Below, one piece after another: positions 9,303 through 24,745 of a stretch of DNA of 43,570 bases. Below the pieces are notes generated by a model. That model had not been told where the DNA came from and did no database searches. It was given only the letters and a program-made list of their open reading frames with translations. The stretch spans positions 1 to 43,570 of the forward strand of contig OMIX01000043.1 in NCBI GenBank assembly GCA_900299195.1, in the 5' to 3' direction. Origin of the DNA: Deltaproteobacteria bacterium. Its GTDB lineage: Bacteria > Bdellovibrionota > FAC87 > UBA2466. Positions within the stretch are counted from its first letter, which is position 1. Every line of letters starts with the position of its first letter. A program made the translations under genes and the position numbers.

Positions 9303-10505
9303 TTATTTGTCGGAAACTAAATTTTTGGGGAAATCTCTGACGTCTCGCAATAAGCCACCTTCTCGAGGGTCTTTTCGAAGAGATTGAATTAAATCTGCAG
9401 TGATGGGTTGCTCTTTAAAGTCTCTTCTCCAGCGGTAAACTCGTACTAAGCCTTCATCCAACGTTCTGTCGTGGTCGTTTTCATAGTAGACCACAAACAG
9501 GCCCCTTCCGATATAGACAATGTTGGCTCCTTCTAATCCATTTTCGGCTGCAGACTCGTCGTCTGGGTTTTTTATCCATCCCCAGTCTCCGGGAACCCAA
9601 TGATCTGCAGGAACTTTAAAATGTCTATCGACTAAAGTGCCTTCTTTCACCATGTCTTTTTTGGATTGGCCGTTGACCCACATTTCCATAGTATCTAATG
9701 GGGTGGGGCTGGTGATTTCATCTAAATGCTCGGCCATTTTGAGGTCTTTTTTGACGTGCTTATAATAATCCAAAATCCCTTGAGCCAAAATGAGTTGGCA
9801 GGCTTTGGTACAGCCCATTTCATAATCTAACTTACCGATAAAAGCGTCCTCAATCGCTTCGCTGCTTTTTACTCCGGGTTGGAGTTTCCAGTCGGAAGCC
9901 CAAAGTTTAGTGTTGGTCTTTGAACCGTCTTCGGGAAATTTCCACAACGCTCGAATTCCCCAACGGATGATATTCTGTCGAATTTTGATGTGCTCTAAAA
10001 ATTTTTCAAAAGAACAAAAACTTTTTTCAAACTCAAACAGACGACCTCTTTGAAGCATAGAGGCTACAATTTCTTTTTCGTCAGCTATTTTATAGTCGTG
10101 CTTTTTACCACTTCGATCGACAAAACGGTCTATGTCTGGATTTATTTTGAATTCTGCTCGATTGTGCAGGGTTAAAGTGTCGGTATCGGTGAGCGGCGTA
10201 TTTAAGTGGATATTAAGTTGAGTTCCCTCCGTAGAAGTTTTTAAGGAAGCCAAGGAGGGATCCCCTAGCCATCCATAACTGCTAAAAAGCTGATTAAATT
10301 CTTTTTCCAATTTTTGGATCTGATCTTTGGAACAGTTAAATTGAACCCCAAATGAACTGAACGAAGATTCCGCGATGGGGCGTGGGGCTTTTTGACTGGG
10401 TTGCGATGAATTTGCCGATGGCGAATGATAGGCTTCGGCAAAAACAACGGTGCTAATCGCTAAATTTATTATGACAAGATGTTTTAATATGAGTTGAACC
10501 ATCAT
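9303..10505 (-). CDS. Secreted protein-glutamine gamma-glutamyltransferase, Tgl-like
   Basis: 400 residues from the ATG at 10505 (ATG at 10502 is equally possible; GAGG lies just upstream). A signal peptide (MMVQLILKHLVIINLAISTVVFAEA) is followed by a Tgl-like domain. The stretch DYEMGCTKACQLIL...YYK (228-248) resembles the catalytic-Cys helix of Bacillus spore-coat Tgl, with C232 or C236 as nucleophile. WVPGDWGWIKNPD (303-315) and GANIVYIGRGLFVVYY match its PGDxxYFKNP...GENxI region. The role would be extracytoplasmic protein cross-linking. The resemblance is from recalled motifs; the exact nucleophile is uncertain. Confidence 0.68.
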   Translation of the reverse strand: MMVQLILKHLVIINLAISTVVFAEAYHSPSANSSQPSQKAPRPIAESSFSSFGVQFNCSKDQIQKLEKEFNQLFSSYGWLGDPSLASLKTSTEGTQLNIHLNTPLTDTDTLTLHNRAEFKINPDIDRFVDRSGKKHDYKIADEKEIVASMLQRGRLFEFEKSFCSFEKFLEHIKIRQNIIRWGIRALWKFPEDGSKTNTKLWASDWKLQPGVKSSEAIEDAFIGKLDYEMGCTKACQLILAQGILDYYKHVKKDLKMAEHLDEITSPTPLDTMEMWVNGQSKKDMVKEGTLVDRHFKVPADHWVPGDWGWIKNPDDESAAENGLEGANIVYIGRGLFVVYYENDHDRTLDEGLVRVYRWRRDFKEQPITADLIQSLRKDPREGGLLRDVRDFPKNLVSDK

Positions 10506-10700
10506 TATCCTCGTACTGTGTACAGTAGCCACTCGGCTGTCGACTTTGGAATGCAAATACAGATCCAAGGGTGCTTGCCCCTGAGATAGTGGGAATCCAT
10601 TTTTTGAGTGACCGATGTGGGCATCAGAGTGTCTAGACTCTAGCGGAATACGCATCGCGAAGCCTAAGCTTGTAGACCTGTTTTTTTTATTTCCTGAGTC

Positions 10701-11378
10701 TTAAATAATGGGAAAGGAAGGAAGTTCGTCGACGATTTTAGGGAGCTTTTGCATCATGGCTAATCGATTTTGTAAGAGATAAATATCGTTTCCAACAGCT
10801 TTGATAATTTCGCTTTTCTCTAATTCCATTAGGCAGAACCGAAATTCTTCTTTAGACATCTGAATGTAAAACTTAAAAAGGCTTGAGGGTAGGTAAATTT
10901 CTAATCCTCTTTCCGTTTTTTTACCGAAAGTATCAAAGAGATAAACCATCAGGTGCATCAAACGATCTTCTTTTTTTTCATATTTAAAGCAATGAATCAG
11001 TTGATTGGCCCTAATTAACCTTTGGTAACTTGTTTTTCCACAAAGTTTCAGCAGTTCCGCATAAAGCGGAGAATCCGAAGTTTTAAGCTTTTCGATTTCA
11101 TCGGCTGTCATTCGAATGCATTGAACCTCGGTGTTAGCTTTTGCAGCGTAAACCCGTTTCATGTTCTTAATTCCAAAGAAAAGATGTTCCCCTAAAACCT
11201 CTCCGGGACCTACATAGTTCACAAAGGTTTCATTTTCCCATTCTCCGTTACACAGCACGACAAACCCAGAGATGATAAAAAAGACGGAGTCGGCATCGGC
11301 ATCTTGAGCGAAAAGATAGGAACCTGGAAGAAGGTTCAGTTTAAACTTTTTTAGAGAATCTGAATTTAGATTGATCAT
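10701..11378 (-). CDS. Crp/Fnr-family transcriptional regulator
   Basis: 225 residues: an N-terminal cyclic-nucleotide-binding-type beta roll (LPGSYLFAQDADADSVFFIISGFV, GPGEVLGEHLFF), a long dimerisation helix near 95-150, and a C-terminal winged helix (LPSSLFKFYIQMSKEEFRFCLMELEKSEII). The ligand pocket is not obviously cAMP-type. Five scattered cysteines (43, 87, 113, 130, 182) exist but not in an Fnr-like cluster. It is divergent from the arsenic-type operon across a 126-base gap, the usual layout of a dedicated regulator. Confidence 0.85.
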   Translation of the reverse strand: MINLNSDSLKKFKLNLLPGSYLFAQDADADSVFFIISGFVVLCNGEWENETFVNYVGPGEVLGEHLFFGIKNMKRVYAAKANTEVQCIRMTADEIEKLKTSDSPLYAELLKLCGKTSYQRLIRANQLIHCFKYEKKEDRLMHLMVYLFDTFGKKTERGLEIYLPSSLFKFYIQMSKEEFRFCLMELEKSEIIKAVGNDIYLLQNRLAMMQKLPKIVDELPSFPII

Positions 11379-11415
11379 AAAATTTCCAAAAAAATAAAAG
11401 GGACTATGAATACTG

Positions 11416-11457
11416 GGGATCGACCCCTTGAGAAAATTCCATACTTTATGATAAACT
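11416..11457 (+). promoter_or_regulatory. Promoter and possible operator of the arsenic-type operon
   Basis: TTGAGA (11428-11433), 18 bases, TAAACT (11452-11457) forms a plausible sigma70 promoter for the radical SAM gene. Immediately upstream, GGGGATCGACCCC (11416-11428) is an inverted repeat abutting the -35 box, a good position for a regulator. Crp-family sites are usually TGTGA-type, so binding by the divergent regulator is only a suggestion. Confidence 0.45.
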
Positions 11458-11504
11458 AAAGCAATCTAATTTCTCCCCTTTTTTTCTTACAATCAGGAAA
11501 CAAA

Positions 11505-12896
11505 ATGAAAACCGAAAGCGCTGCTTATCATATACATCCATCTCAACATTTACATCCATCTCAACATTCAACTTTGGGTTCCAATGGGCCGGAATTCATG
11601 TCTCCCGAAGAGATCAAGTTATTTAAACCCCACCCATGGGTGCAGTCCCAAGACATGGCGTTTGCCGTCGATCGGGCTAAAACCCGAATGGAAGTTGCCG
11701 GAGTTTGGACACCGAATCAAATTCTGGGCCGTCGTTATTCAATTGGTTGTGTGGCCTTAGAAATCACTCAGCGTTGCAATTTAGATTGCACTCTGTGTTA
11801 CCTCTCAGAGCATTCCGAATCTGTGAAAGACATTCCTATGGAGGAGATCTTTCGGCGGATTGACCAAATTAAACTCCAGTTTGGTCCTTCTAATGACATT
11901 CAAATCACCGGAGGAGATCCGACGCTAAGAAAACGCTCCGAATTAATGGAGATTGTTCGATACATTCGAAAAATTGGAATGCGTCCGACACTCATGACCA
12001 ATGGAATCGCTGCTACGCGAGATATGTGTCAGGAGCTGGTAGCCAACGGACTGAATGATATCGCCTTTCACGTAGACTTAACCCAAGAGCGAAAAGGCTA
12101 TAAAACTGAAATGGAGCTAAACAAGTTTAGGAAAGATTATATTGAGCGGGTGCGTGGCCTACCCATCGCTGTCATTTTTAATACGACCGTCTTTAAAGAC
12201 AACTTCCATGAGATTCCTGATCTTATACGGTTTTTCAGAGCCAATACCGACGTGGTTGGAATGGCCTCTTTTCAACTTCAAGCCGAAACAGGAAGAGGAG
12301 TTTTAAGAAAACGTGATGTAGTCATCTCATTAGATTCCGTGTCTGAAAAAATTCAAGAGGGGGCAGGGATTCCCATCTCTTTTGATACCGCAAGAATTGG
12401 ACATCCACGGTGTCATAAATATGGGTTAACTTTAGAATCCAATGGAAAGCTTTTTGATTTTTTTGATGATCCCAAGCTTTTTAATTTAATGATTGAAAAG
12501 ACAAGAACCCTTGAGCTAGACCGAACTCATAAACTGAAACTGACAAAAAATATCCTCACTTGGCTTTTTCAAAACCCCGATTTTGTTATTCCCGCCGTAA
12601 AATTCGCCTTCAGGAAACTTTGGGAAATGAAATGGGACATCCTTAAATCACGTCGTGTAGGAAAGTTATCTTTTTTTATTCAGAATTTTATGGATGCAAG
12701 TTCGTTGGAATTGGATAGAATCCATGCCTGTTCATTCATGGTGATGACACCTCAGGGGCCCATTTCAATGTGTATGCATAACGCAAAACGGGACGATTAC
12801 ATTCTTCAACCTATCAAATTAAAAACTGAACAAATTTGGCAGCCCCTGACCGGCAAAACCGAAGCCTGTTGTTCTGAAGAGAAAAAGGCAGAGTGA
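11505..12896 (+). CDS. Radical SAM enzyme of the arsenic-type operon
   Basis: 463 residues. The [4Fe-4S]/SAM motif C91-x3-C95-x2-C98 is in LEITQRCNLDCTLCYL, and ITGGDPTLRKRS is the SAM-contact GGDP strand. TNGIAATRDM follows in the barrel. The C-terminal part has further cysteines (RCHKYG; HACSFM...ISMCMHN), hinting at a SPASM-like second cluster, and ends in vicinal C455-C456. The N-terminus contains a duplicated HPSQH motif, possibly metal-binding. It lacks the NxxCNQxCxHCH signature I recall for ArsS. The position directly upstream of arsM suggests it acts on an arsenical, but that is inference. AGGAAA precedes the ATG. Confidence 0.82.
   Translation: MKTESAAYHIHPSQHLHPSQHSTLGSNGPEFMSPEEIKLFKPHPWVQSQDMAFAVDRAKTRMEVAGVWTPNQILGRRYSIGCVALEITQRCNLDCTLCYLSEHSESVKDIPMEEIFRRIDQIKLQFGPSNDIQITGGDPTLRKRSELMEIVRYIRKIGMRPTLMTNGIAATRDMCQELVANGLNDIAFHVDLTQERKGYKTEMELNKFRKDYIERVRGLPIAVIFNTTVFKDNFHEIPDLIRFFRANTDVVGMASFQLQAETGRGVLRKRDVVISLDSVSEKIQEGAGIPISFDTARIGHPRCHKYGLTLESNGKLFDFFDDPKLFNLMIEKTRTLELDRTHKLKLTKNILTWLFQNPDFVIPAVKFAFRKLWEMKWDILKSRRVGKLSFFIQNFMDASSLELDRIHACSFMVMTPQGPISMCMHNAKRDDYILQPIKLKTEQIWQPLTGKTEACCSEEKKAE
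11533..11568 (+). repeat. Perfect 2 x 18-bp tandem duplication inside the radical SAM gene
   Basis: The 18 bases at 11533-11550 are repeated exactly at 11551-11568. In frame this doubles a six-residue His-containing unit (H-x-HPSQH twice). The identity implies a recent slippage duplication. Confidence 0.9.
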
Positions 12897-12901
12897 TTCC
12901 A

Positions 12902-13693
12902 ATGAAAACTTATTTAAAAAAAACGGTTCGTTCGCTGCCAGTTTTAGGGCTCTTTTTAGTTTCAAGCTGTTCCACTTTAGTGCGAATGCCAGAGGGACGC
13001 CCTACTTTAACGCCCGATGAGGCACAGAAAGCCTGGGGCCGAGTTCTTAAAGAATTTGTGAATGAGAAGGGGCAAGTGGGTTTCTCTAAACTAGCGCAGA
13101 AAAGGGGAGACCTGGATAGTTATGTAGCTTACATTGCTAAAGTAGGACCTAAGTCCAATCCTACCCAGTTTTCTAATCCCGAAGTTCTTCTAGCTCATTA
13201 CCTTAATTCGTACAATGCCTTGTCCATGTACAATATTTTAGATTCAGAAATTCCTGAGTCTCTGGGTGGTTTAAAAAAAGTAAAGTTTTTTTACTTCAAA
13301 AAGTTTGTGATCGACGGTCAGGAAATGTCTCTCTACGCTTATGAAAACGAAGTGATTCGAAAAGTTGGAGAAGAAAGAGTTCACTTTGCTCTGAATTGCA
13401 TGTCCAAGGGATGTCCTAGGCTTCCCCGAGTTCCCTTTACTGGAAAAAGGTTAAATCAGGAACTCGATGAACAGGCCAAGTTTTTCTTTAGTGAAGAACG
13501 CAACGTTAAAGTCAATGAAACCGATAAAAAAGTAGAGCTTTCAGAAATTCTTGATTTCTTTCCTGGAGATTTTTTAAAGAAGGCACCTAATTTAATTGCT
13601 TATGCTAACCGTTTTCGGCCCAAAGGGAAAACATTACCTGAGAACTACTCGGTTAGTTTTATTCCCTATGATTGGAAAGTGAACAGCTATTAG
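12902..13693 (+). CDS. DUF547 lipoprotein
   Basis: 263 residues from ATG 12902 (an in-frame GTG at 12893 overlaps the radical SAM stop). The signal peptide ends in a lipobox, FLVSSC with C23, so it is probably a lipid-anchored envelope protein. The DUF547 hallmarks are clear: AHYLNSYNALSMYNIL and HFALNCMSKGCPRLP, with two conserved cysteines. The family has no settled biochemical function. It is packed 5 bases after the radical SAM gene and 22 bases before arsM, so it is part of the operon. Confidence 0.88.
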   Translation: MKTYLKKTVRSLPVLGLFLVSSCSTLVRMPEGRPTLTPDEAQKAWGRVLKEFVNEKGQVGFSKLAQKRGDLDSYVAYIAKVGPKSNPTQFSNPEVLLAHYLNSYNALSMYNILDSEIPESLGGLKKVKFFYFKKFVIDGQEMSLYAYENEVIRKVGEERVHFALNCMSKGCPRLPRVPFTGKRLNQELDEQAKFFFSEERNVKVNETDKKVELSEILDFFPGDFLKKAPNLIAYANRFRPKGKTLPENYSVSFIPYDWKVNSY

Positions 13694-13715
13694 TTCTTTT
13701 TAGAGAGGATATAAA

Positions 13716-14774
13716 ATGAATAATAATAAATTTTCAACTTTAGAATCTGTCAAAAATTATTATGGAAAAGTTCTTAAAAACACCGCTGATCTGCAAACTT
13801 CGGCCTGTTGTTCGGCAGAGGCTCTGCCCCGATTTGCAAGAGAGATAGTCAAAGAAATTCATCCCGAAGTTGTTGAAAAGTTTTATGGCTGTGGCAGCCC
13901 TTTTCCACCGGCACTTGAAGGGAGAACTGTTTTAGATTTGGGCTGTGGAGCGGGTCGGGACGTTTATTTGCTCTCCAAATTGGTAGGAGAAAAAGGAAAA
14001 GTGATTGGCGTTGATATGACTGAAGAGCAATTAGAGGTTGCGAAGCGCCATATCGACTATCATCGAGCTAAGTTTAAATATCGTGAGCCCAACGTTCAGT
14101 TTTTCAAAGGCTATATTGAGGATCTCGAATCGGCAGGAATCAAGTCCAATTCAATCGATCTTGTAGTTTCAAATTGTGTGACCAACCTTTCTCCTAACAA
14201 AGATCGAGTTTTTTCTGAGATTTTTCGAGTTTTAAAGCCTGGAGGGGAGCTTTATTTTAGTGATGTTTTTTCAAATCGAAGAATTCCCGAACCTCTTACC
14301 GAGGATCCTGTATTGCTGGGGGAGTGTTTAGGGGGCGCAATGTACAAAGAAGATTTTCGTCGACTTCTCGCTCGCCTTGGATGCCAGGATTTTCGTGTGG
14401 TGTCCTCATCGCCGATCACTCTAAATAACCCTGAAATTGAAAAGAAGATAGGAATGGTGGGTTTTCAGTCTATTACCTTCAGAGCTTTTAAATTGGATTT
14501 AGAAGATCGGTGTGAAGATTATGGACAAATCGCCTTTTATCAAGGAACCATTGAAGATCATCCTCATTCTTTCATGTTGGATGACCATCATCTCTTTAAA
14601 ACAGGACAACCGATGTTGGTGTGTGGAAATACTGCCGACATGATTTCTAAAACTTGGTATAAAAATCACTTTAAGGTTGTTGGAGAAAAGAACACTCATC
14701 TAGGCTTGTTTGATTGTGGCCCCACGCCTATAAGTTCGGCTTCAGCGGATTGCTCAACTGGAGCTTGCTGCTAG
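13716..14774 (+). CDS. arsM: Arsenite S-adenosylmethionine methyltransferase
   Basis: 352 residues. The class I methyltransferase core begins at TVLDLGCGAGRDVYLLSKLVG (71-91). ArsM arsenic-binding cysteines are all present: CC at 31-32 (LQTSACC), C59 (YGCGSPFP), C154 (SNCVTNLSP) and C204 (GECLGGA). The 50-residue spacing from C154 to C204 equals that between the catalytic cysteines of the algal enzyme CmArsM as I recall it. The ~100-residue C-terminal domain is typical of the longer ArsM group, and the protein ends CSTGACC, a further thiol-rich motif. It methylates As(III) with SAM. It is 8 bases upstream of the aquaporin gene. Confidence 0.92.
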   Translation: MNNNKFSTLESVKNYYGKVLKNTADLQTSACCSAEALPRFAREIVKEIHPEVVEKFYGCGSPFPPALEGRTVLDLGCGAGRDVYLLSKLVGEKGKVIGVDMTEEQLEVAKRHIDYHRAKFKYREPNVQFFKGYIEDLESAGIKSNSIDLVVSNCVTNLSPNKDRVFSEIFRVLKPGGELYFSDVFSNRRIPEPLTEDPVLLGECLGGAMYKEDFRRLLARLGCQDFRVVSSSPITLNNPEIEKKIGMVGFQSITFRAFKLDLEDRCEDYGQIAFYQGTIEDHPHSFMLDDHHLFKTGQPMLVCGNTADMISKTWYKNHFKVVGEKNTHLGLFDCGPTPISSASADCSTGACC

Positions 14775-14782
14775 GGGGAAAA

Positions 14783-15445
14783 GTGGAAAAGAAGAAAATA
14801 ATTTCTGAGTTTTTGGGCTCTTTAGCACTTCTGTTAATCGTTGTAGGCTCTGGCATTATGGGGGAGAAACTTGCTGCAGGAAATATCGCGATAGCTTTAC
14901 TCGCCAATTCCTTAGCTACGGGGGCAGGGCTGTACGTTTTGATTACGACGTTAGGACCTGTTTCGGGGGCCCATTTTAATCCGGCGGTGAGTTCCTATAA
15001 AAAGTGGCGAAAAGAGATCTCGACTTCAACTTGGTTGGGTTACATGGTGGCCCAATTAGTGGGTGGGATTTTAGGTGTTTTTTTGGCTCATTATATTTTT
15101 GAGCTCCCCTTGTTTCAGGTTTCTCAACATACTCGAGATGGATTGCCTCAAATTGTTTCAGAAATGGTGGCTACTTTTGGGTTACTCTTTACCATTTCGG
15201 GATTTGGTCGATTTCAGCCTGCTAAGACAGCCATGGGTGTGGCTTTATACATAGTGGGAGCCTATTGGTTTACTTCTTCTACTTCCTTTGCCAATCCCGC
15301 AGTTTCTATCGCACGTAGTTTTACGGATACATTTGCTGGGATTGCTCCACACAGTTTGTGGGGTTACATCGCAGGTCAGTTGGGGGCAGTGGTTTTGTTT
15401 GTGGCGGTGGAGCCTATGTTGTTTGCAAAAGAAATAAACAACTAG
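14783..15445 (+). CDS. MIP-family aquaglyceroporin, AqpS-like
   Basis: 220 residues, predicted six membrane helices. Both channel motifs are present: SGAHFNPAVS in the first half and FANPAVSIAR in the second, the latter with the selectivity-filter arginine. I use the GTG at 14783, 8 bases after arsM with GGGGG just upstream; the ORF is open into arsM but that part has no MIP similarity. In several ars operons AqpS replaces an active pump and lets trivalent or methylated arsenicals diffuse out, a fitting role here. Water or glycerol transport cannot be excluded. Confidence 0.9.
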   Translation: MEKKKIISEFLGSLALLLIVVGSGIMGEKLAAGNIAIALLANSLATGAGLYVLITTLGPVSGAHFNPAVSSYKKWRKEISTSTWLGYMVAQLVGGILGVFLAHYIFELPLFQVSQHTRDGLPQIVSEMVATFGLLFTISGFGRFQPAKTAMGVALYIVGAYWFTSSTSFANPAVSIARSFTDTFAGIAPHSLWGYIAGQLGAVVLFVAVEPMLFAKEINN

Positions 15446-15459
15446 GGAGGTTACTCAAC

Positions 15460-16212
15460 ATGAAAAGCTTTAAAAGTTTGGGGGTAATGCTAATGGCAGG
15501 ACAACTTTTGGGAACTCAACCCGCCAGCGAACAGTTGTTTACAAAGTTAAAAAACCATTTGTCGGGTTTGAGTAAGGAACTTTCAAAAAAGCCGATCACC
15601 CATTTGGATCAAGCCAAAAAAATCGCAGAGGCGATTTCAAAGTTGCATCAGCCCGGGAAAGAGCTCCCGATTGTGGTGGTGTGCACTGGAAATTCAAGAA
15701 GAAGCATGATGGGGGCTGCCATGGGAAATGCTTCGGCAGCTCTTTTTGAACTAGGCGAGTTAAGGTTTTACTCTGGAGGAACGGCCCCAAGCGCTTTTAA
15801 TTCAAGAACTATAGCTTCTTTGAAAGAGGCAGGATTTGAAGTGGAACCTACGGGTAAACAAGCCACCAAGGGGAGTAAAGGGGAAGAAAACCCAATTTAT
15901 TGGGTAAAATGGGGCAAGGGGCAACAGTTTCAAATGGAAGAATACTCGAAACAATATGGGGATCCCCAAAATCCGCAGAAGGATTTTATCGCTCTCATGG
16001 TGTGTGATGAGGCGAGTAAAAACTGTCCAGTCGTTAAAGGGGCGAAGTACCGTTTTGCGATCCCATTTGAAGATCCCAAAGCTTTTGATGGGACCGCTCA
16101 AGAAAAAGCTATGTACAGTGCCAAAAGAGATGATTTGGGAAGATTTATGTTAAAGACCTTAGAGTTGGTTAAGGACTTTGAAGGAAATCAACCCAATTCG
16201 ATGAATCATTAA
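15460..16212 (+). CDS. Low-molecular-weight phosphatase / arsenate reductase-like protein
   Basis: 250 residues from ATG 15460 with GGGAGG nine bases upstream. The active-site P-loop VVCTGNSRRS has C75 and R81 (Cx5R); LMVCDEASKNCPVV and IPFEDPKAFDG match the arsenate-reductase-like branch of the LMW-PTP fold. An N-terminal extension of ~65 residues precedes the fold, and its first 22 residues resemble a signal peptide, so export is possible. It may reduce arsenate to feed ArsM or dephosphorylate another substrate. It lies 14 bases after the aquaporin gene. Confidence 0.82.
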   Translation: MKSFKSLGVMLMAGQLLGTQPASEQLFTKLKNHLSGLSKELSKKPITHLDQAKKIAEAISKLHQPGKELPIVVVCTGNSRRSMMGAAMGNASAALFELGELRFYSGGTAPSAFNSRTIASLKEAGFEVEPTGKQATKGSKGEENPIYWVKWGKGQQFQMEEYSKQYGDPQNPQKDFIALMVCDEASKNCPVVKGAKYRFAIPFEDPKAFDGTAQEKAMYSAKRDDLGRFMLKTLELVKDFEGNQPNSMNH

Positions 16213-16240
16213 TTCAATGAAGTAAAAAGGGATCATCATC

Positions 16241-16930
16241 ATGAAGTTGCAACGCTTACACGCCATATTTCTAATCGGTTTAATTTTGAATCTCTTCCAA
16301 ATTTCCGTAGCCGAAGGGGATTCTAAAATTGAGAACTGGATTCAAATCAATCAAACGTTGAAATTGAATGATTCCTTTTCCTTGTTTACTGAAATACAAC
16401 CTCGAATTTCCTATTCTGAAGGAGAACTTGCTAGCATGATTGCAAGGCTAGCTCCGGTCTTTAACATCAATTCTCACCATCAGGTTGGAGCGGGTTTTCT
16501 GTGGCAAGGCAACTTTTCCCCCAGTGCTTCTAATGAAACCCGTTTATTCCTGCAGTATGTTGCGAACTACGCACCTTTTGAAAAAAGTAATTTCATTCAC
16601 CGGTTTCGGTTTGAACACAGAGCTTTAAGTACCACTTTGGATAAAGCTTATCGACTTCGTTATCAATTAAGAACTTTGCATTCTTGGTTTAGTGACAGTA
16701 ATTTAAGATTTCTATTGTCTGATGAAGTTTTTTTTAATTTGAACACTACCGCTGTTGCGGGACCCGTTTCGGGCTTTGACCAAAATCGATTGGTAGTAGG
16801 AATTAACTATATTTGGGCTAAGAACCTAAATAGTGATATCGGGTATATGTACAACCACATTAAAAAACCCAGGTCTGTTGAGAATCGAGATAATCACATC
16901 TTTTATTATTGTTTGAATGCCAACTTTTAA
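16241..16930 (+). CDS. DUF2490 outer-membrane beta-barrel protein
   Basis: 229 residues. A signal peptide (to ~SVAEG) is followed by alternating beta strands: ENWIQINQTLKLNDSFSLFTEIQPR, RLFLQYVANYAPF, FRFEHRA, RLRYQLRT and a final aromatic strand ending NANF, the pattern of DUF2490 and an outer-membrane C-terminal signature. It is the last gene of the operon, so it may provide an outer-membrane route for the pathway's product; this is inference. GGGATC lies upstream of the ATG. Confidence 0.8.
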   Translation: MKLQRLHAIFLIGLILNLFQISVAEGDSKIENWIQINQTLKLNDSFSLFTEIQPRISYSEGELASMIARLAPVFNINSHHQVGAGFLWQGNFSPSASNETRLFLQYVANYAPFEKSNFIHRFRFEHRALSTTLDKAYRLRYQLRTLHSWFSDSNLRFLLSDEVFFNLNTTAVAGPVSGFDQNRLVVGINYIWAKNLNSDIGYMYNHIKKPRSVENRDNHIFYYCLNANF

Positions 16931-17286
16931 ATAGGTGGATTTAAAACGGGCCAGATATCGATCCCACTGGCTCACATGGGTTAGTCACTAGATAAATTTA
17001 AGAAAATTAAAAAAACTAGGTCTACCGGCTTAGGCTTCGCCATGCGCCGTACGACCTGGTTTTTTATTTTTAGGAAAAAAGTTTTTGAAGTGAGATGAGA
17101 ACCTTTCTCGCCGTAGATAAGCCATAGCTTATCTGATGAAAGTAAAAGGTACGTCTTAGTTGTTTTTTGTTCGCTGTTCGATCCTTAGTCGGCGCATACC
17201 TCATGTAAACACAATCTCTGAGCTTGTTTTATTAAGGCACAGTGTTTGCTCCTTACTCAGACAACTTAACCAAGGAAATTAAGAAT
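16931..17286. other. Intergenic region of 356 bases
   Basis: It holds the terminator at 17014-17071 and, further on, a perfect hairpin GATAAGC/GCTTATC (17116-17122, 17127-17133) in DNA that I cannot assign to a gene. The rest presumably carries the promoter of the secreted peptidase-like gene; I see no clean -35/-10 pair. Confidence 0.6.
17014..17071 (+). terminator. Intrinsic terminator of the arsenic-type operon
   Basis: AACTAGGTC (17014-17022) pairs with GACCTGGTT (17053-17061) over nine positions (one G-T). An inner CGGC/GCCG and GGC/GCC give a long structured loop, followed by TTTTTATTTTT. It is 84 bases after the last operon gene. Part of the loop is shared with a sequence at 10651-10679. 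Confidence 0.75.
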
Positions 17287-18146: not shown

Positions 18147-20630
18147 TTAGGGCAGCGGTTTAACTTGTGTTTTTAGATGTAACTGAGTTTTGAGATCTCC
18201 AGTGGGGATTCCATTGGCCAACAGTAAATGTCCATAGTCTTCGTCAGTGTCCAATTCCAAATTCCAAACATCTTCTGGGGCTTGGTAATTGAGTTTTTTG
18301 ACACTTTTGACTTTTTTACTTTGGCGATCTCCAATCAAAACTGTCCCGGCTTTCAGGGTCTGGGTTTGTACCCAACCGGATGCAGTGAGAAAGGGATGAT
18401 CTTCTGTTACCACCACATCTTGGTTTCCATAATTTACCCGCCATAACGATTTTTTCTCAGGCCCTTTGACGACTTTTTTCACTCGAACCGGAACGTTATA
18501 AAGCGGATTAAGAACCCATTCGTCCGAACTAATCTCAGAAACTTTTCTTTCTGAGCCATCTGCCATTTTTATCGTGGTAGAACCCGCAAAGCATCCGCCT
18601 TGGCGATACATGCTTCGTTTGGTGTTAATCACAGAACACTGGCTATCCCGTTTGACTGCGTTGATGTCGGATGCGATTTTTCTAAGGTAATTGTCTCCAT
18701 AAGGCATCGAAAGGCCCACTTCAATCCAGTAAAACTGAATATTGGAGTAGGTGTTGGATTCATTAAATTCATCCCTTCCATCCAGTTTTACCCCAAAATG
18801 GCCCCCCGCTGATGAGGTTCTTTTTACCACCATGCAATAGTGTCCTGGAGTGCAAAGTTCATTGTGGTCTTTAATGAGAAAGGCTCCGGTGCCCGCGTAC
18901 TCATTGGTAAAATCTGCAGAAAAACCCACTAACGATGCAGGTCCGGAAGTGAGAGTGGCGGTGTAAGGGGAACCCCCAGCCACGTTCGTTCTAGTGTAGG
19001 TTTTGTATCCCATCGTGTAAATAAGATCGTCTGGGGCCACACCCACCCGTCCATCTTCGTCTCCTACTTCTTTAAAAACTGAATTGTTAGCAAAGAGCTT
19101 GGCCTCATAGTTGGTATCATTGAAGGGGCAACCTTGAGAATTTAAAACGACCGAATAGGGGTATTCTCTACCCGTGATCGATTTGACCGTTACTGTGAGT
19201 GTTTGAACTCCAGTTCCTTGTTTTACGAAGGGTTTTGAAAAAGTACGGTTATTAGCGTTGTCGGGTTGATCGGCACTATTGTTAAATTTTTTTGTTCTTA
19301 CTTTAAACTTTTTGCCCTCAATAGTTTTCTCCTCTTCAACTTCGGTGTACTTTCCTCGTCTAAACCCCGAGTTTTGACCGGGGTGTGAATTCACAACTAT
19401 TGATAGGTCAGCCACGGGTCCACCGAGAGGGCTATTACAGTCGGCAATGATATCGATCGTTTCGCCAGGCACGGGATTGGGCTGAGAAGCGTAAACATTA
19501 CAAATAGGCTCTAGCGGATAATCCACTTTCAAAGACATATTACAGTCGGTCGTCGCTCCATCTAAACCCGCAACTCGTGCAATGATATTCCAATTTTGTA
19601 TTCTGGGATTGGTGGGGTCGTAAGTTACTCCGAGTTGTCCCGTCATAGATTCACCCTTACTTTTAGGGATGCGGAAGGTAAATCCCGATGGTTTTAGAGG
19701 CTTCATTTCGCCATAACCACTCATCGCGTAACGATCGAAGCTGTTGTAATTGGCTTCAGTCCCATCGGGTAAAATGATTTTTGCGTTGGAGGTAACGCTG
19801 TCGGTTTGGATTTGAAAAACTGTATCGTAATCTCCTTGGGTAAAAAGAGGGATAGGCTGAGCCGAAATAGCTGAGAGCTGACAAGACGGGGTTGCGGGGG
19901 GATTGATAGGGAAAAGAGCTAAAGTAGATTTTGCCCCCGATTGGATTGAAAAAAGGACTTTGGCAAGCTTGTTAGGATTGCTGCTGTCTGCGATTAGCTT
20001 TTTAAATACGACTCCCGAGTCACTTAACAATTTATTGAGAGGAGCTCGTGCACCGGGAGTAAAAAGATCGAGCCGTTCAGTCAGCGATAAATTGTTGAAG
20101 TTAGGAAAGGAGATAAGTCCAGAGGGAACTTGAGAGAGGTCGGTTCCAGAGGGCTGTGCCGCAGATAGAACACTTCCTAAGCCCGAGCCATCGGCTAGGT
20201 AATTAACTACGTTGCAATCGTCAGGTGACAAGGCTTTTTTGGGGAACGGAGAGATGGCTTGGCAAGTTCCGCTGTCATCTTTGTGTCCTTGAACCCAGTA
20301 GAGCGCCACAAAGGTGTCCGAGGCAATTGCCGAGGGGCTCAGTGCCTTAAGCGTAGGCGAGGGCGCACTGCTCGTCATTTCGCTTGCCACTGGATAAAAT
20401 TGAGTGGACCAATCTGGTTTTAATTTTCCGTTAAGTTGAATTTTTTTATAGACCAAATCGGCTACTAAAGAGCTTTGACCCGAAGCCTGGGCTTGATTTT
20501 GAGCCGTAGCCACCGTTTTAGAAAACTGGCCGATTTGTGAAAGCATGACGGTAAGAGAAGCCAGACCCAACCCTCCCAAAATTACAACTAGGATCAACGC
20601 GTTTCCTTTGCGACTGGTGAGTGTATTCAT
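18147..20630 (-). CDS. Giant pilin-like protein with a C-terminal Hint (hedgehog/intein) domain
   Basis: 827 residues. The N-terminus RKGNALILVVILGGLGLASLTVMLSQI resembles a PilX-type class III signal and transmembrane helix (cleavage after G9), without the Glu5 of major pilins. Residues ~240-640 are beta-rich with Ig-like stretches (PNPVPGETIDIIADC). The final 148 residues start at C680: CFAGSTTIKMADGS, then VVTEDHPFLTASGW and DYGHLLLANGIPTGDL, the ordered blocks of a Hint domain. The C-terminal His-Asn plus nucleophile needed for protein splicing is absent, so cleavage or thioester chemistry is more likely than splicing. It is divergent from a pilin-like operon. Confidence 0.82.
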   Translation of the reverse strand: MNTLTSRKGNALILVVILGGLGLASLTVMLSQIGQFSKTVATAQNQAQASGQSSLVADLVYKKIQLNGKLKPDWSTQFYPVASEMTSSAPSPTLKALSPSAIASDTFVALYWVQGHKDDSGTCQAISPFPKKALSPDDCNVVNYLADGSGLGSVLSAAQPSGTDLSQVPSGLISFPNFNNLSLTERLDLFTPGARAPLNKLLSDSGVVFKKLIADSSNPNKLAKVLFSIQSGAKSTLALFPINPPATPSCQLSAISAQPIPLFTQGDYDTVFQIQTDSVTSNAKIILPDGTEANYNSFDRYAMSGYGEMKPLKPSGFTFRIPKSKGESMTGQLGVTYDPTNPRIQNWNIIARVAGLDGATTDCNMSLKVDYPLEPICNVYASQPNPVPGETIDIIADCNSPLGGPVADLSIVVNSHPGQNSGFRRGKYTEVEEEKTIEGKKFKVRTKKFNNSADQPDNANNRTFSKPFVKQGTGVQTLTVTVKSITGREYPYSVVLNSQGCPFNDTNYEAKLFANNSVFKEVGDEDGRVGVAPDDLIYTMGYKTYTRTNVAGGSPYTATLTSGPASLVGFSADFTNEYAGTGAFLIKDHNELCTPGHYCMVVKRTSSAGGHFGVKLDGRDEFNESNTYSNIQFYWIEVGLSMPYGDNYLRKIASDINAVKRDSQCSVINTKRSMYRQGGCFAGSTTIKMADGSERKVSEISSDEWVLNPLYNVPVRVKKVVKGPEKKSLWRVNYGNQDVVVTEDHPFLTASGWVQTQTLKAGTVLIGDRQSKKVKSVKKLNYQAPEDVWNLELDTDEDYGHLLLANGIPTGDLKTQLHLKTQVKPLP

Positions 20631-23203: not shown

Positions 23204-24745
23204 CTAATTAGGAGATAGGTTTTTCCACCGATCAGGAGTTTCCTTTAAAGCATCCAAATTGACAGAGGGTTGGTTCATTCTCTCGTCCACACCCAAAGTA
23301 TCTTGTGACTGACTTTCTGTTTTTAAATGAAAGCTACCCACATAAGCAACCCAAGTGGTTTGAGGATTCTTGTTTAAATATTCCTTGATAGTTTTAATCC
23401 AGTGCTCTTCACGTTTCTCTTTAGACCCATTTTTCTTTGGGAGATCAATCGCGATGGGTCTAATACCTTTAGCAGATAAACTTTTCATTAGCTCAAGTTC
23501 TCCTAACTTCAATTGAGCGTATCCTTGATTACGGCGAGTCACGGTGGTGATGAGTTTGTTAAGATTAACGGTCGTAGGATCTTTAAAAAAAGAATCCAGC
23601 AAAGGTTGTTCAGAGGTACGAAAGTGTTCTAAGAAAAAAACGGAAACACCCTTTTTCTTAAGTTCCTCAAGATGATGAATCAAAATAAAATCAGGCCAAT
23701 CCAATGCATGACCGGGATCTCCATAAAAAAAACCATTTTCAGAGTAGGGGAGTGGAAAGTTTAGATTGTTATGAGCCTTATCTTCATGGATCAGTCGACG
23801 AAAAAAATAGCTTCCTTGGGTTTTGATAAACTTTCCATCAATTTCCATGTGGGGATGAACGAAAAAATTAATCGGTCCATCCTGTGGAGTGGGAGTGAAA
23901 GTTAACTGTCGACCTCGAGTCAATTCGAAACGGTTAGCGGGGTGATGTCCAAAGTAGTAGTCTTTGGCTTCGGGGTGTTTCCAGGCCTCTGAAATATCAA
24001 CCGGAACCCATTTCCCTTGGGCTAGAAATTCGGCCCAGCAATGATAACCCTCGATTTCCCCCTCTGTTTTATCTGGGGGAATGGTAAAGCCTACCATGAA
24101 ACGACTCGGGATTTTAGCAGCTCGGGAGATCGCGATAAAGAGAGCATGAAAATCGCTACAATTTCCCTTTTTGACATCGCAAGCATAGATGGCATCTCCG
24201 CGGCCCCAGCCCACGCCACTTTTGTCGTATTTCATGACGGAGAGAACATATTCATAAATAGCGCGCCCTTTTTCTAGGTCGGTGCCTTGGCTTTTGGTGA
24301 TCTCTTGTGCCAGTTTTTTAAATCTCGGATCTAGGGGAATAAGAGGTTCGGCTTTTAAATACAGGTTAATATTTTTCTCCGTGTTTCGGTATTCCGATTT
24401 TTCAAAACGACGGACTTTGTAGTTAAAAGAAATTTTTTTTCCAGAATCATTGTGATCAAACCTAAAAAACACAGCTTGGTTTTGGAAAACCGGGTCTTTT
24501 GATTCTTTTCCTAACAGAGAACTGAATTGTTTTTGTGTCTCTACTCGTTGAAATACATCGGAATGAGCGGTTGGAATCCAAATTTCCCCTTTTTGTCCCG
24601 GGTTTAATGGGGGCAATGAAATAGAGTAGGTGAATTCAAAGAAATCTTTACCTGGAATGTAAAAAGGCGTTCCGAGAAGTAGGCGGGTGAGAAAAAATCC
24701 AATCAGAAAAAAAAATTTGTGATTCATCGTTGAAAGGTAACTCAT
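23204..24745 (-). CDS. Exported transglutaminase-core protein with ChaN/TraB-like C-terminal region
   Basis: 513 residues. An N-terminal hydrophobic export segment starts after M1 or M7 (24727); neither start has a clear ribosome binding site. Residues ~40-120 are beta-rich, then a transglutaminase/protease core: GNCSDFHALFIAISRAAKIPSRFMVGF with C196, EGYHCWAEF with H235 and VPVDISEAW with D250. The last ~180 residues (KKGVSVFFLEHF, RPIAIDLPKK, TWVAYVGSFHLKT) resemble the ChaN/EreA/Tiki-like fold but this is tentative. Such core domains are usually envelope proteases or amidases. Confidence 0.75.
   Translation of the reverse strand: MSYLSTMNHKFFFLIGFFLTRLLLGTPFYIPGKDFFEFTYSISLPPLNPGQKGEIWIPTAHSDVFQRVETQKQFSSLLGKESKDPVFQNQAVFFRFDHNDSGKKISFNYKVRRFEKSEYRNTEKNINLYLKAEPLIPLDPRFKKLAQEITKSQGTDLEKGRAIYEYVLSVMKYDKSGVGWGRGDAIYACDVKKGNCSDFHALFIAISRAAKIPSRFMVGFTIPPDKTEGEIEGYHCWAEFLAQGKWVPVDISEAWKHPEAKDYYFGHHPANRFELTRGRQLTFTPTPQDGPINFFVHPHMEIDGKFIKTQGSYFFRRLIHEDKAHNNLNFPLPYSENGFFYGDPGHALDWPDFILIHHLEELKKKGVSVFFLEHFRTSEQPLLDSFFKDPTTVNLNKLITTVTRRNQGYAQLKLGELELMKSLSAKGIRPIAIDLPKKNGSKEKREEHWIKTIKEYLNKNPQTTWVAYVGSFHLKTESQSQDTLGVDERMNQPSVNLDALKETPDRWKNLSPN

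Follow-up and report, generated by a model that had tools for sequence, protein, structure and literature searches.

The bacterial gene sets closest to the locus described here are the arsenosugar clusters, which combine ArsM, ArsS, TIGR04282, TIGR04283, and MTAP; to our knowledge, the genes for the steps that follow ArsM and ArsS toward arsenosugars and arsenolipids are poorly defined. According to two sources, the radical enzymes ArsL and ArsS make bonds to arsenic in bacteria (PMC8552651, PMC12159101), and a third discusses whether arsenolipid synthesis is under genetic control (PMC11009773). We analyzed a 43,570-nucleotide stretch of a Deltaproteobacteria bacterium (the window; contig OMIX01000043.1 of assembly GCA_900299195.1) with a six-gene operon in which a radical S-adenosylmethionine (SAM) protein resembling the lipid carbon–carbon coupling enzyme Tes (rSAM) and a DUF547 protein precede ArsM, an AqpS-like channel, an ArsC-like protein, and a DUF2490 protein.

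We tentatively favor reading this locus as an organoarsenical operon into which a tailoring module is built: rSAM–DUF547 would be a lipid-type radical module recruited repeatedly to arsenosugar-type gene sets. The likeness to arsenosugar clusters lies in three places: the genome of the window has an ArsS gene; a Cupriavidus operon of this type ends in rSAM–DUF547; and a relative from the same family (G006) carries the orthologous ArsM directly beside ArsS, followed by genes for an MTAP-like phosphorylase and for a glycosyltransferase resembling TIGR04283 (165.7 bits; cutoff 182). The difference is that ArsS lies outside the window operon. The arsQML arsinothricin cluster likewise has ArsM adjoining a radical SAM gene; its description places ArsQ among the relatives of GntP permeases and calls ArsL a noncanonical radical SAM enzyme, whereas the window operon has no such permease (PMC8552651). 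Nowhere in the open-licence literature searched are an extra rSAM and DUF547 described as parts of the arsenosugar pathway, and none was found joining DUF547 with radical SAM, or with arsM plus radical SAM, which is weak evidence of novelty; DUF547 and "arsen" came up together in only one paper, which concerns tomato.

The operon and its arsenic components

The six genes span 11505-16930 (+) with successive gaps of -4, 22, 8, 14, and 28 bases and form a single operon. The sequence-only reading had proposed six such genes in these places, on this strand and in these Pfam families, and all six are there. The features are as follows.

10701-11378 (-): divergent protein with a cyclic-nucleotide (cNMP)-binding domain (Pfam cyclic-nucleotide-binding domain, 5.1e-14)
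11428-11457 (+): weak sigma-70-like promoter match, TTGAGA-18-TAAACT (motif scan)
11505-12896 (+): rSAM, Tes-like radical SAM protein, 463 aa (Pfam Radical_SAM, 4.2e-19)
12893-13693 (+): DUF547 protein with lipobox-like N-terminus, GTG start (Pfam DUF547, 2.5e-18)
13716-14774 (+): ArsM, predicted long-type As(III) S-adenosylmethionine methyltransferase, 352 aa (Pfam Methyltransf_31, 1.2e-34)
14783-15445 (+): MIP-family (aquaporin/AqpS-like) channel, GTG start (Pfam MIP, 4.2e-20)
15460-16212 (+): ArsC-like protein of the LMWPc family with N-terminal extension (Pfam LMWPc, 3.4e-7)
16241-16930 (+): DUF2490 protein with hydrophobic N-terminal stretch (Pfam DUF2490, 7.8e-39)
17010-17066 (+): intrinsic terminator, hairpin then T-run (-26.7 kcal/mol)

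The rSAM and DUF547 genes overlap by 4 bases when DUF547 begins at its GTG; a start at the ATG at 12902 gives a gap of +5 instead and reproduces the 5-base first gap reported earlier. A simple terminator scan had not listed the hairpin at 17010-17066. Separate folding against shuffles brought it out (z -5.9; matched by 0/200 shuffles), and with its T-run it bears out the shared terminator proposed before. The shared promoter fared less well: the weak match exists, but the scan found 10 promoter-type matches against 15.9 expected in shuffles, which is not above chance. Regulation by Crp, also proposed from the sequence, fell away when we looked for a neighboring regulator and a site kept in relatives. 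The divergent gene has no Pfam helix-turn-helix match, its homolog was called in none of 85 other loci (codon-based calls, including the nearest relatives L016 and L017), and the DNA upstream of the operon is poorly conserved in those two relatives; Crp control is therefore unsupported.

By full-length similarity and cysteine motifs, ArsM is a long-type arsenite methyltransferase. In a PDB sequence search its residues 10-347 (of 352) aligned with two solved arsenite methyltransferases, 5evj (371.7 bits) and 4fr0 (338.2 bits), which we take to be CrArsM and CmArsM. The motifs SACC (C31/32), YGCG (C59), SNCV (C154), and GECLGG (C204) are present, and alignments show the single Cys of SAC, YGCG/WGCG, SNCV, and GECL to be common to the window protein, 5evj, and 4kw7. 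Against NCBIfam NF008823 (arsenite methyltransferase) the protein scored 187.8 bits, below the cutoff of 263, and is not filed under that model.

The ArsC-like protein is a candidate arsenate reductase. A CX5R P-loop plus a CX6C pair is the pattern of thioredoxin-type ArsC (pI258), and the window protein has CX5R at C75 and a CX6C pair at C182/C189, three cysteines in ArsC spacing; its TIGR02691 score of 34.9 bits, far below the cutoff of 174.3, makes it ArsC-like only. An ArsC-type gene recurs after ArsM: in the sister genome represented by L017, a different ArsC-family protein occupies this slot (TIGR02691, 103.2 bits, again short of 174.3), with CX5R just upstream of a start called ~15 residues late. 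The channel is AqpS-like on the evidence of its PF00230 match (72.9 bits against a cutoff of 25) and two NPA motifs, at 66 and 171; a close copy occurs only in G000 (the genome of the window, 97% complete) and G004 among the 14 genomes searched, G000 and its relatives. The DUF2490 protein, from a family presumably placed in the outer membrane, has a homolog only in the window among 88 sources by longest-open-reading-frame (ORF) calls and 86 by codon-based calls. Alignments, cysteine spacing, and NPA motifs bear out ArsM, the ArsC-like protein, and the AqpS-like channel as the probable arsenic components that the sequence-only reading had named, and the operon as a whole very probably has an arsenic role.

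That reading had also noted the lack of ArsS and of a pump, which holds for the operon and only in part for the genome. ArsS is encoded in G000 on another contig (C95), beside a TIGR04169 "arsenosugar biosynthesis-associated" protein, and is present in 8/14 genomes. PF02040 (ArsB) has no match in any of the 14, G000 included, and PF01758, the family of ACR3, has none in G000-G004 and matches in 6/14. Given the lack of a PF02040 or PF01758 match in G000, this host may deal with arsenic chiefly by methylation and through the channel. In the relative G003, rSAM stands without DUF547 beside it, and DUF547 adjoins ArsM on another contig.

The radical SAM protein and its DUF547 partner

Sequence and structural comparisons both place rSAM near Tes. 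Among solved structures, GDGT-MAS/Tes (7tol) is the closest to it in sequence (2.1e-29) and is also the best Foldseek match (4.7e-14) of its AlphaFold2 model (predicted local distance difference test, pLDDT, 84.8). VIA-align 2 gave Z 25.1 over 343 residues for 7tol and 23.1 for the other Tes entry, with MoaA next at 14.6. Common to both proteins are the radical SAM (RS) core, the C-terminal domain, and an FMDA..R..C...C pattern. The CX3CX2C motif at C91/C95/C98 is invariant in 28/28 aligned family members, as are Cys 303, 409, and 423, which line up with cysteines of the Tes C-terminal domain and would bind a cluster. Unlike Tes, rSAM lacks the rubredoxin and [4Fe-4S]N domains: the alignment begins at Tes chain residue 112, and no Cys in the window protein precedes C82.

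We call the protein Tes-like rather than Tes because it scores 99.1 bits against NF045702 (Tes/GDGT-MAS), below the cutoff of 450; its best NCBIfam match, the model NF045646 for the radical SAM (seleno)protein TrsS (103.7 bits over residues 82-427), does not reach its cutoff of 490 either. Homology and model together suggest that rSAM works like a Tes-type radical enzyme. For Tes, one study reports a sulfur-containing lipid intermediate that points to C–S storage on the C-terminal cluster, and notes that bacteria with no known production of biphytanyl chains also have Tes homologs (PMC9433317).

The adjacency of rSAM to ArsM, which recalls arsQML (PMC8552651), would also fit an enzyme that acts directly on arsenic by adenosyl or aminocarboxypropyl transfer, like ArsS or ArsL. 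We consider this very unlikely: the fold is Tes-like, a true ArsS shares the operon with rSAM in L039 and L131, and TIGR04167 (ArsS; cutoff 300 bits) is not among the best 25 of 57 NCBIfam matches of rSAM, the last of which scores 31.5 bits. The same evidence of fold and profile agrees with the earlier view that the protein is distinct from ArsS. The arsinothricin-like chemistry once suggested for it loses ground, given the Tes-like fold and the lack of an ArsL-named model among those best 25 matches (ArsL itself was not aligned).

Vicinal Cys pairs lie near the C-termini of both rSAM (residues 455-456) and ArsM (residues 351-352). As an arsenic-binding tail the rSAM pair was discarded, being found in the window, L016, and L017 only and absent from the other 11 arsenic-linked loci; C-rich rSAM tails also occur in L048 and L071.

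The DUF547 protein begins with a lipobox-like LVSSC (Cys26), and its residues Y107, N108, E151, R162, H164, C169, C174, and P175 are invariant in 31 aligned sequences. The predicted structure is of high confidence (pLDDT 93.6) but has no clear counterpart in the PDB: the best Foldseek hit had E 2.4, no VIA-align 2 score exceeded Z 5.1, and we drew no fold assignment. We suggest that DUF547 handles the rSAM product at the envelope.

Linkage of the pair to arsenic genes

Scanning a collection of species genomes with the rSAM alignment yielded 87 confirmed loci. We kept 80 of these, and the window brings the set to 81. Because two peptide patterns were used to find the loci, the sample is biased; many of the contigs do not extend over the full 10-kb flank, which makes the linkage counts lower bounds. 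Genes were called with a codon-based caller and linkage was verified on six-frame translations; the calls had missed ArsM in L016 and ArsS in L117, both found by profile searches. "GT2" in the linkage tally is a profile of our own, not TIGR04283, which exceeds its cutoff in L039, L041, L057, L062, and L084. The names VTT, FADox, MerR, and copper-ATPase in unannotated loci come from inspection by eye or from profiles built on genes of that kind. The nearest named relatives in the scan are Bdellovibrionaceae or Deltaproteobacteria metagenome-assembled genomes (MAGs), making the host akin to predatory bacteria.

DUF547 lies within 1.5 kb of rSAM in 69/81 loci. The flank of rSAM holds ArsM in 7/81, ArsS in 4/81, a TIGR04283-type glycosyltransferase in 5/81, and any of the three in 14/81. 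With DUF547 so much more frequent a neighbor than ArsM, the pair is an independent module and not arsenic-specific.

Where arsenic genes are present, the arrangements differ. An Acidiphilium MAG (L041) has the same set in another phylum and another order, with AQP–ArsM divergent from rSAM–DUF547 (AQP 58% and ArsM 45% identical to the window proteins). Cupriavidus laharis (L039) has ArsS–FADox–VTT–TIGR04283–TIGR04282–MTAP–rSAM–DUF547 on one strand with gaps below 200 bases and every scored family over its cutoff (ArsS 464.6, TIGR04283 274.8, TIGR04282 201.7 bits); a plasmid of Cupriavidus KK10 (L130) repeats this gene order, DUF547 included. On a Burkholderia glumae plasmid (L131) the order is ArsS–hypothetical–NlpC/P60–rSAM–DUF547, and L054 has the same makeup, with the same hypothetical protein. 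A Roseomonas plasmid (L129) carries TIGR04282–DUF547–rSAM, and TIGR04283 adjoins rSAM in L057, L062, and L084. Linkage to ArsM, ArsS, TIGR04283, or TIGR04282 in several separate lineages supports recruitment of the pair to organoarsenical pathways.

The linkage exceeds chance expectation. From background densities (96 ArsS and 73 ArsM matches in 185 gammaproteobacteria, with a mean genome of ~2.6 Mb taken from 114/185 sizes), ArsS was expected near rSAM in 0.27 of 80 loci and seen in 4, and ArsM was expected in 0.20 and seen in 6. To count by evolutionary changes we used a quick rSAM tree of 77 family rows and one outgroup, with L027, L044, L047, and L081 left out for short or missing calls. 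The minimum number of changes on it is 2 for ArsM, 3 for ArsS, 4 for the TIGR04283 type, and 7 for any, corresponding to Poisson P values of ~0.003 for ArsS and ~0.02 for ArsM; by this count the ArsM link alone is modest.

Mobility offers another source of linkage, in which the pair moves along with resistance genes for mercury, copper, and arsenic, and the apparent arsenic link reflects metal islands rather than a pathway. rSAM homologs (<60% identity) occur on 47 PLSDB plasmids (45 Burkholderia, 1 Roseomonas, 1 Cupriavidus), and L037, L040, L042, and L044 have MerR-like and copper-ATPase-like genes nearby, named by eye. Such hitchhiking is unlikely to be the explanation: the pair stands in line with the ArsS operon in L039, L130, and L131, the last being the sole B. 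glumae plasmid copy read, rather than loosely nearby, and no metal-resistance gene turned up among the 13 Pfam-scanned of 29 other window ORFs of >=150 aa. The near-identical rSAM rows of L083 (an Alphaproteobacteria MAG) and L087 (an "Anaerolineae" MAG) point to mis-binning or recent transfer.

Several observations weigh against the organoarsenical reading. No ArsM, ArsS, or TIGR04283-type gene appears within the flank in 67/81 rSAM loci, and arsenic linkage is absent throughout a clade of 36 rSAM rows from marine gammaproteobacteria and Nitrospinota. At E 1e-30, 15/49 rSAM genomes have neither ArsS nor ArsM, including the three Alteromonas tested. ArsS occurs in 22/49 rSAM genomes and in 94/185 background gammaproteobacteria, which is no enrichment in the former, and genome-level ArsS co-occurrence was dropped as support for this reason. 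A relative of the same genus (G002) has ArsM, ArsS, and a DUF547 near ArsM but no rSAM match. In the enzyme itself, Tes Met439 and Tyr459 are not kept, being Gln/His and Val in rSAM; this correspondence is our own reading of the alignment, with a 20-residue tag offset worked out from residue names in PMC9433317, which also reports that Tes variants at these positions retained robust activity.

Two further genome-level counts complete the comparison. ArsM (NF008823, E 1e-30) was found in 24/49 rSAM genomes and 63/185 background genomes, samples that are not taxonomy-matched. All 5 rSAM-positive genomes among the 185 carry ArsS; one is the chosen center, and in the other four the genes lie on different contigs. 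The sequence-only reading had proposed a check on whether radical SAM–DUF547–ArsM synteny recurs. The pair does recur, linked to arsenosugar-type genes in separate lineages, though mostly without ArsM, and this weakens the case for an arsenic-only pathway.

The scarcity of arsenic genes around most loci and in many rSAM genomes is what one would expect if rSAM–DUF547 modified membrane lipids (or the envelope) in general and had no arsenic substrate, being co-transcribed with the ArsM operon perhaps as part of a shared envelope or oxidative stress response. The Tes-like fold suits such a pair, as do its other neighbors: a MauE-type membrane protein recurs (profile match in 16/81 loci), an orphan family (c2) adjoins rSAM in 23 marine loci, and a DedA/VTT-like membrane protein, named by eye, follows DUF547 in the Alteromonas loci L065 and L069. 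The repeated linkage to arsenic genes, in separate lineages and differing gene orders, speaks against it, and we regard it as a serious possibility that nonetheless falls appreciably below even.

Some neighbors deserve record in their own right. Family c2 (~320 aa; e.g., L067:8941-9912(-)) lies divergently upstream of rSAM in marine gammaproteobacteria, beside the arsenic-free form of the module, and has two Cys invariant in 18 sequences. It gave no convincing Pfam or PDB sequence match, and a catalase-like identity suggested by eye was dropped when those searches came back empty. In Acetobacteraceae a second radical SAM protein follows (L026:13106-14065, L036:2421-3377, L129:10359-11306); that of L026 is nearest to the NCBIfam Rv1681 family (89.6 bits against a cutoff of 380), and on the Roseomonas plasmid phosphonate-type ABC transporter genes come after it. 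A chalcone-isomerase-like protein recurs beside rSAM–DUF547 or DUF547–ArsM in L022, L024, L026, L028, L092, L129, and L113 (the last by eye), accompanied by the MauE-type protein in all of these except L113. Within the window, an 827-aa protein near the operon (18147-20630 (-)) has a C-terminal Hint-type domain just below Pfam cutoffs (Vint 26.7 bits against 27, PT-HINT 26.5 against 27.7), and two proteins are transglutaminase-type (9303-10655 (-), TGL 4.6e-15; 23204-24745 (-), Transglut_core 7.9e-26).

A proposed route and its significance

Under the organoarsenical reading, the ArsC-like protein would reduce arsenate and ArsM would methylate the resulting arsenite, with methylarsenicals feeding the ArsS encoded on the other contig toward an arsenosugar. 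The channel could pass arsenite or methylarsenicals, a role suggested by the failure to find an ArsB or ACR3-family pump. rSAM would bind SAM at CX3CX2C, generate a 5'-deoxyadenosyl radical, and abstract hydrogen from a lipid-like substrate at an unactivated carbon; the carbon radical would then be held or coupled at the C-terminal [4Fe-4S] cluster, as in Tes. DUF547, outside the cytoplasm, would handle or anchor the product. The substrate here would be an arsenosugar or arsenosugar-lipid, and where a genome has no arsenic genes, the pair would act on a different lipid.

That rSAM–DUF547 acts on an organoarsenical in this locus is possible, if a little short of an even chance. A more specific version, which we think distinctly unlikely, makes rSAM a dedicated arsenolipid synthase: like Tes, it would trap a carbon radical on its C-terminal iron–sulfur cluster and couple this to a second unactivated carbon, here linking a lipid chain to the carbon of an arsenosugar or of an arsenic-bound methyl group, and DUF547 would be its envelope partner. 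The general direction toward arsenosugars and arsenolipids taken by the sequence-only reading gains from the ArsS, TIGR04283, and TIGR04282 operons to which the pair is linked and from the Tes-like nature of rSAM.

Since the pair also stands beside arsenosugar genes in several unrelated bacteria, rSAM–DUF547 may be a candidate for a missing step toward arsenic-containing sugars or lipids. A two-gene module that recurs in unrelated ArsM and ArsS clusters, with a radical enzyme built like one that couples lipid carbons, makes that candidate concrete and testable, and it offers a way into one group of bacterial Tes-like proteins, as well as into a DUF547 group whose model matched nothing in the PDB. 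If the arsenolipid synthase version were true, arsenic-containing lipids would have a genetically encoded route of synthesis.

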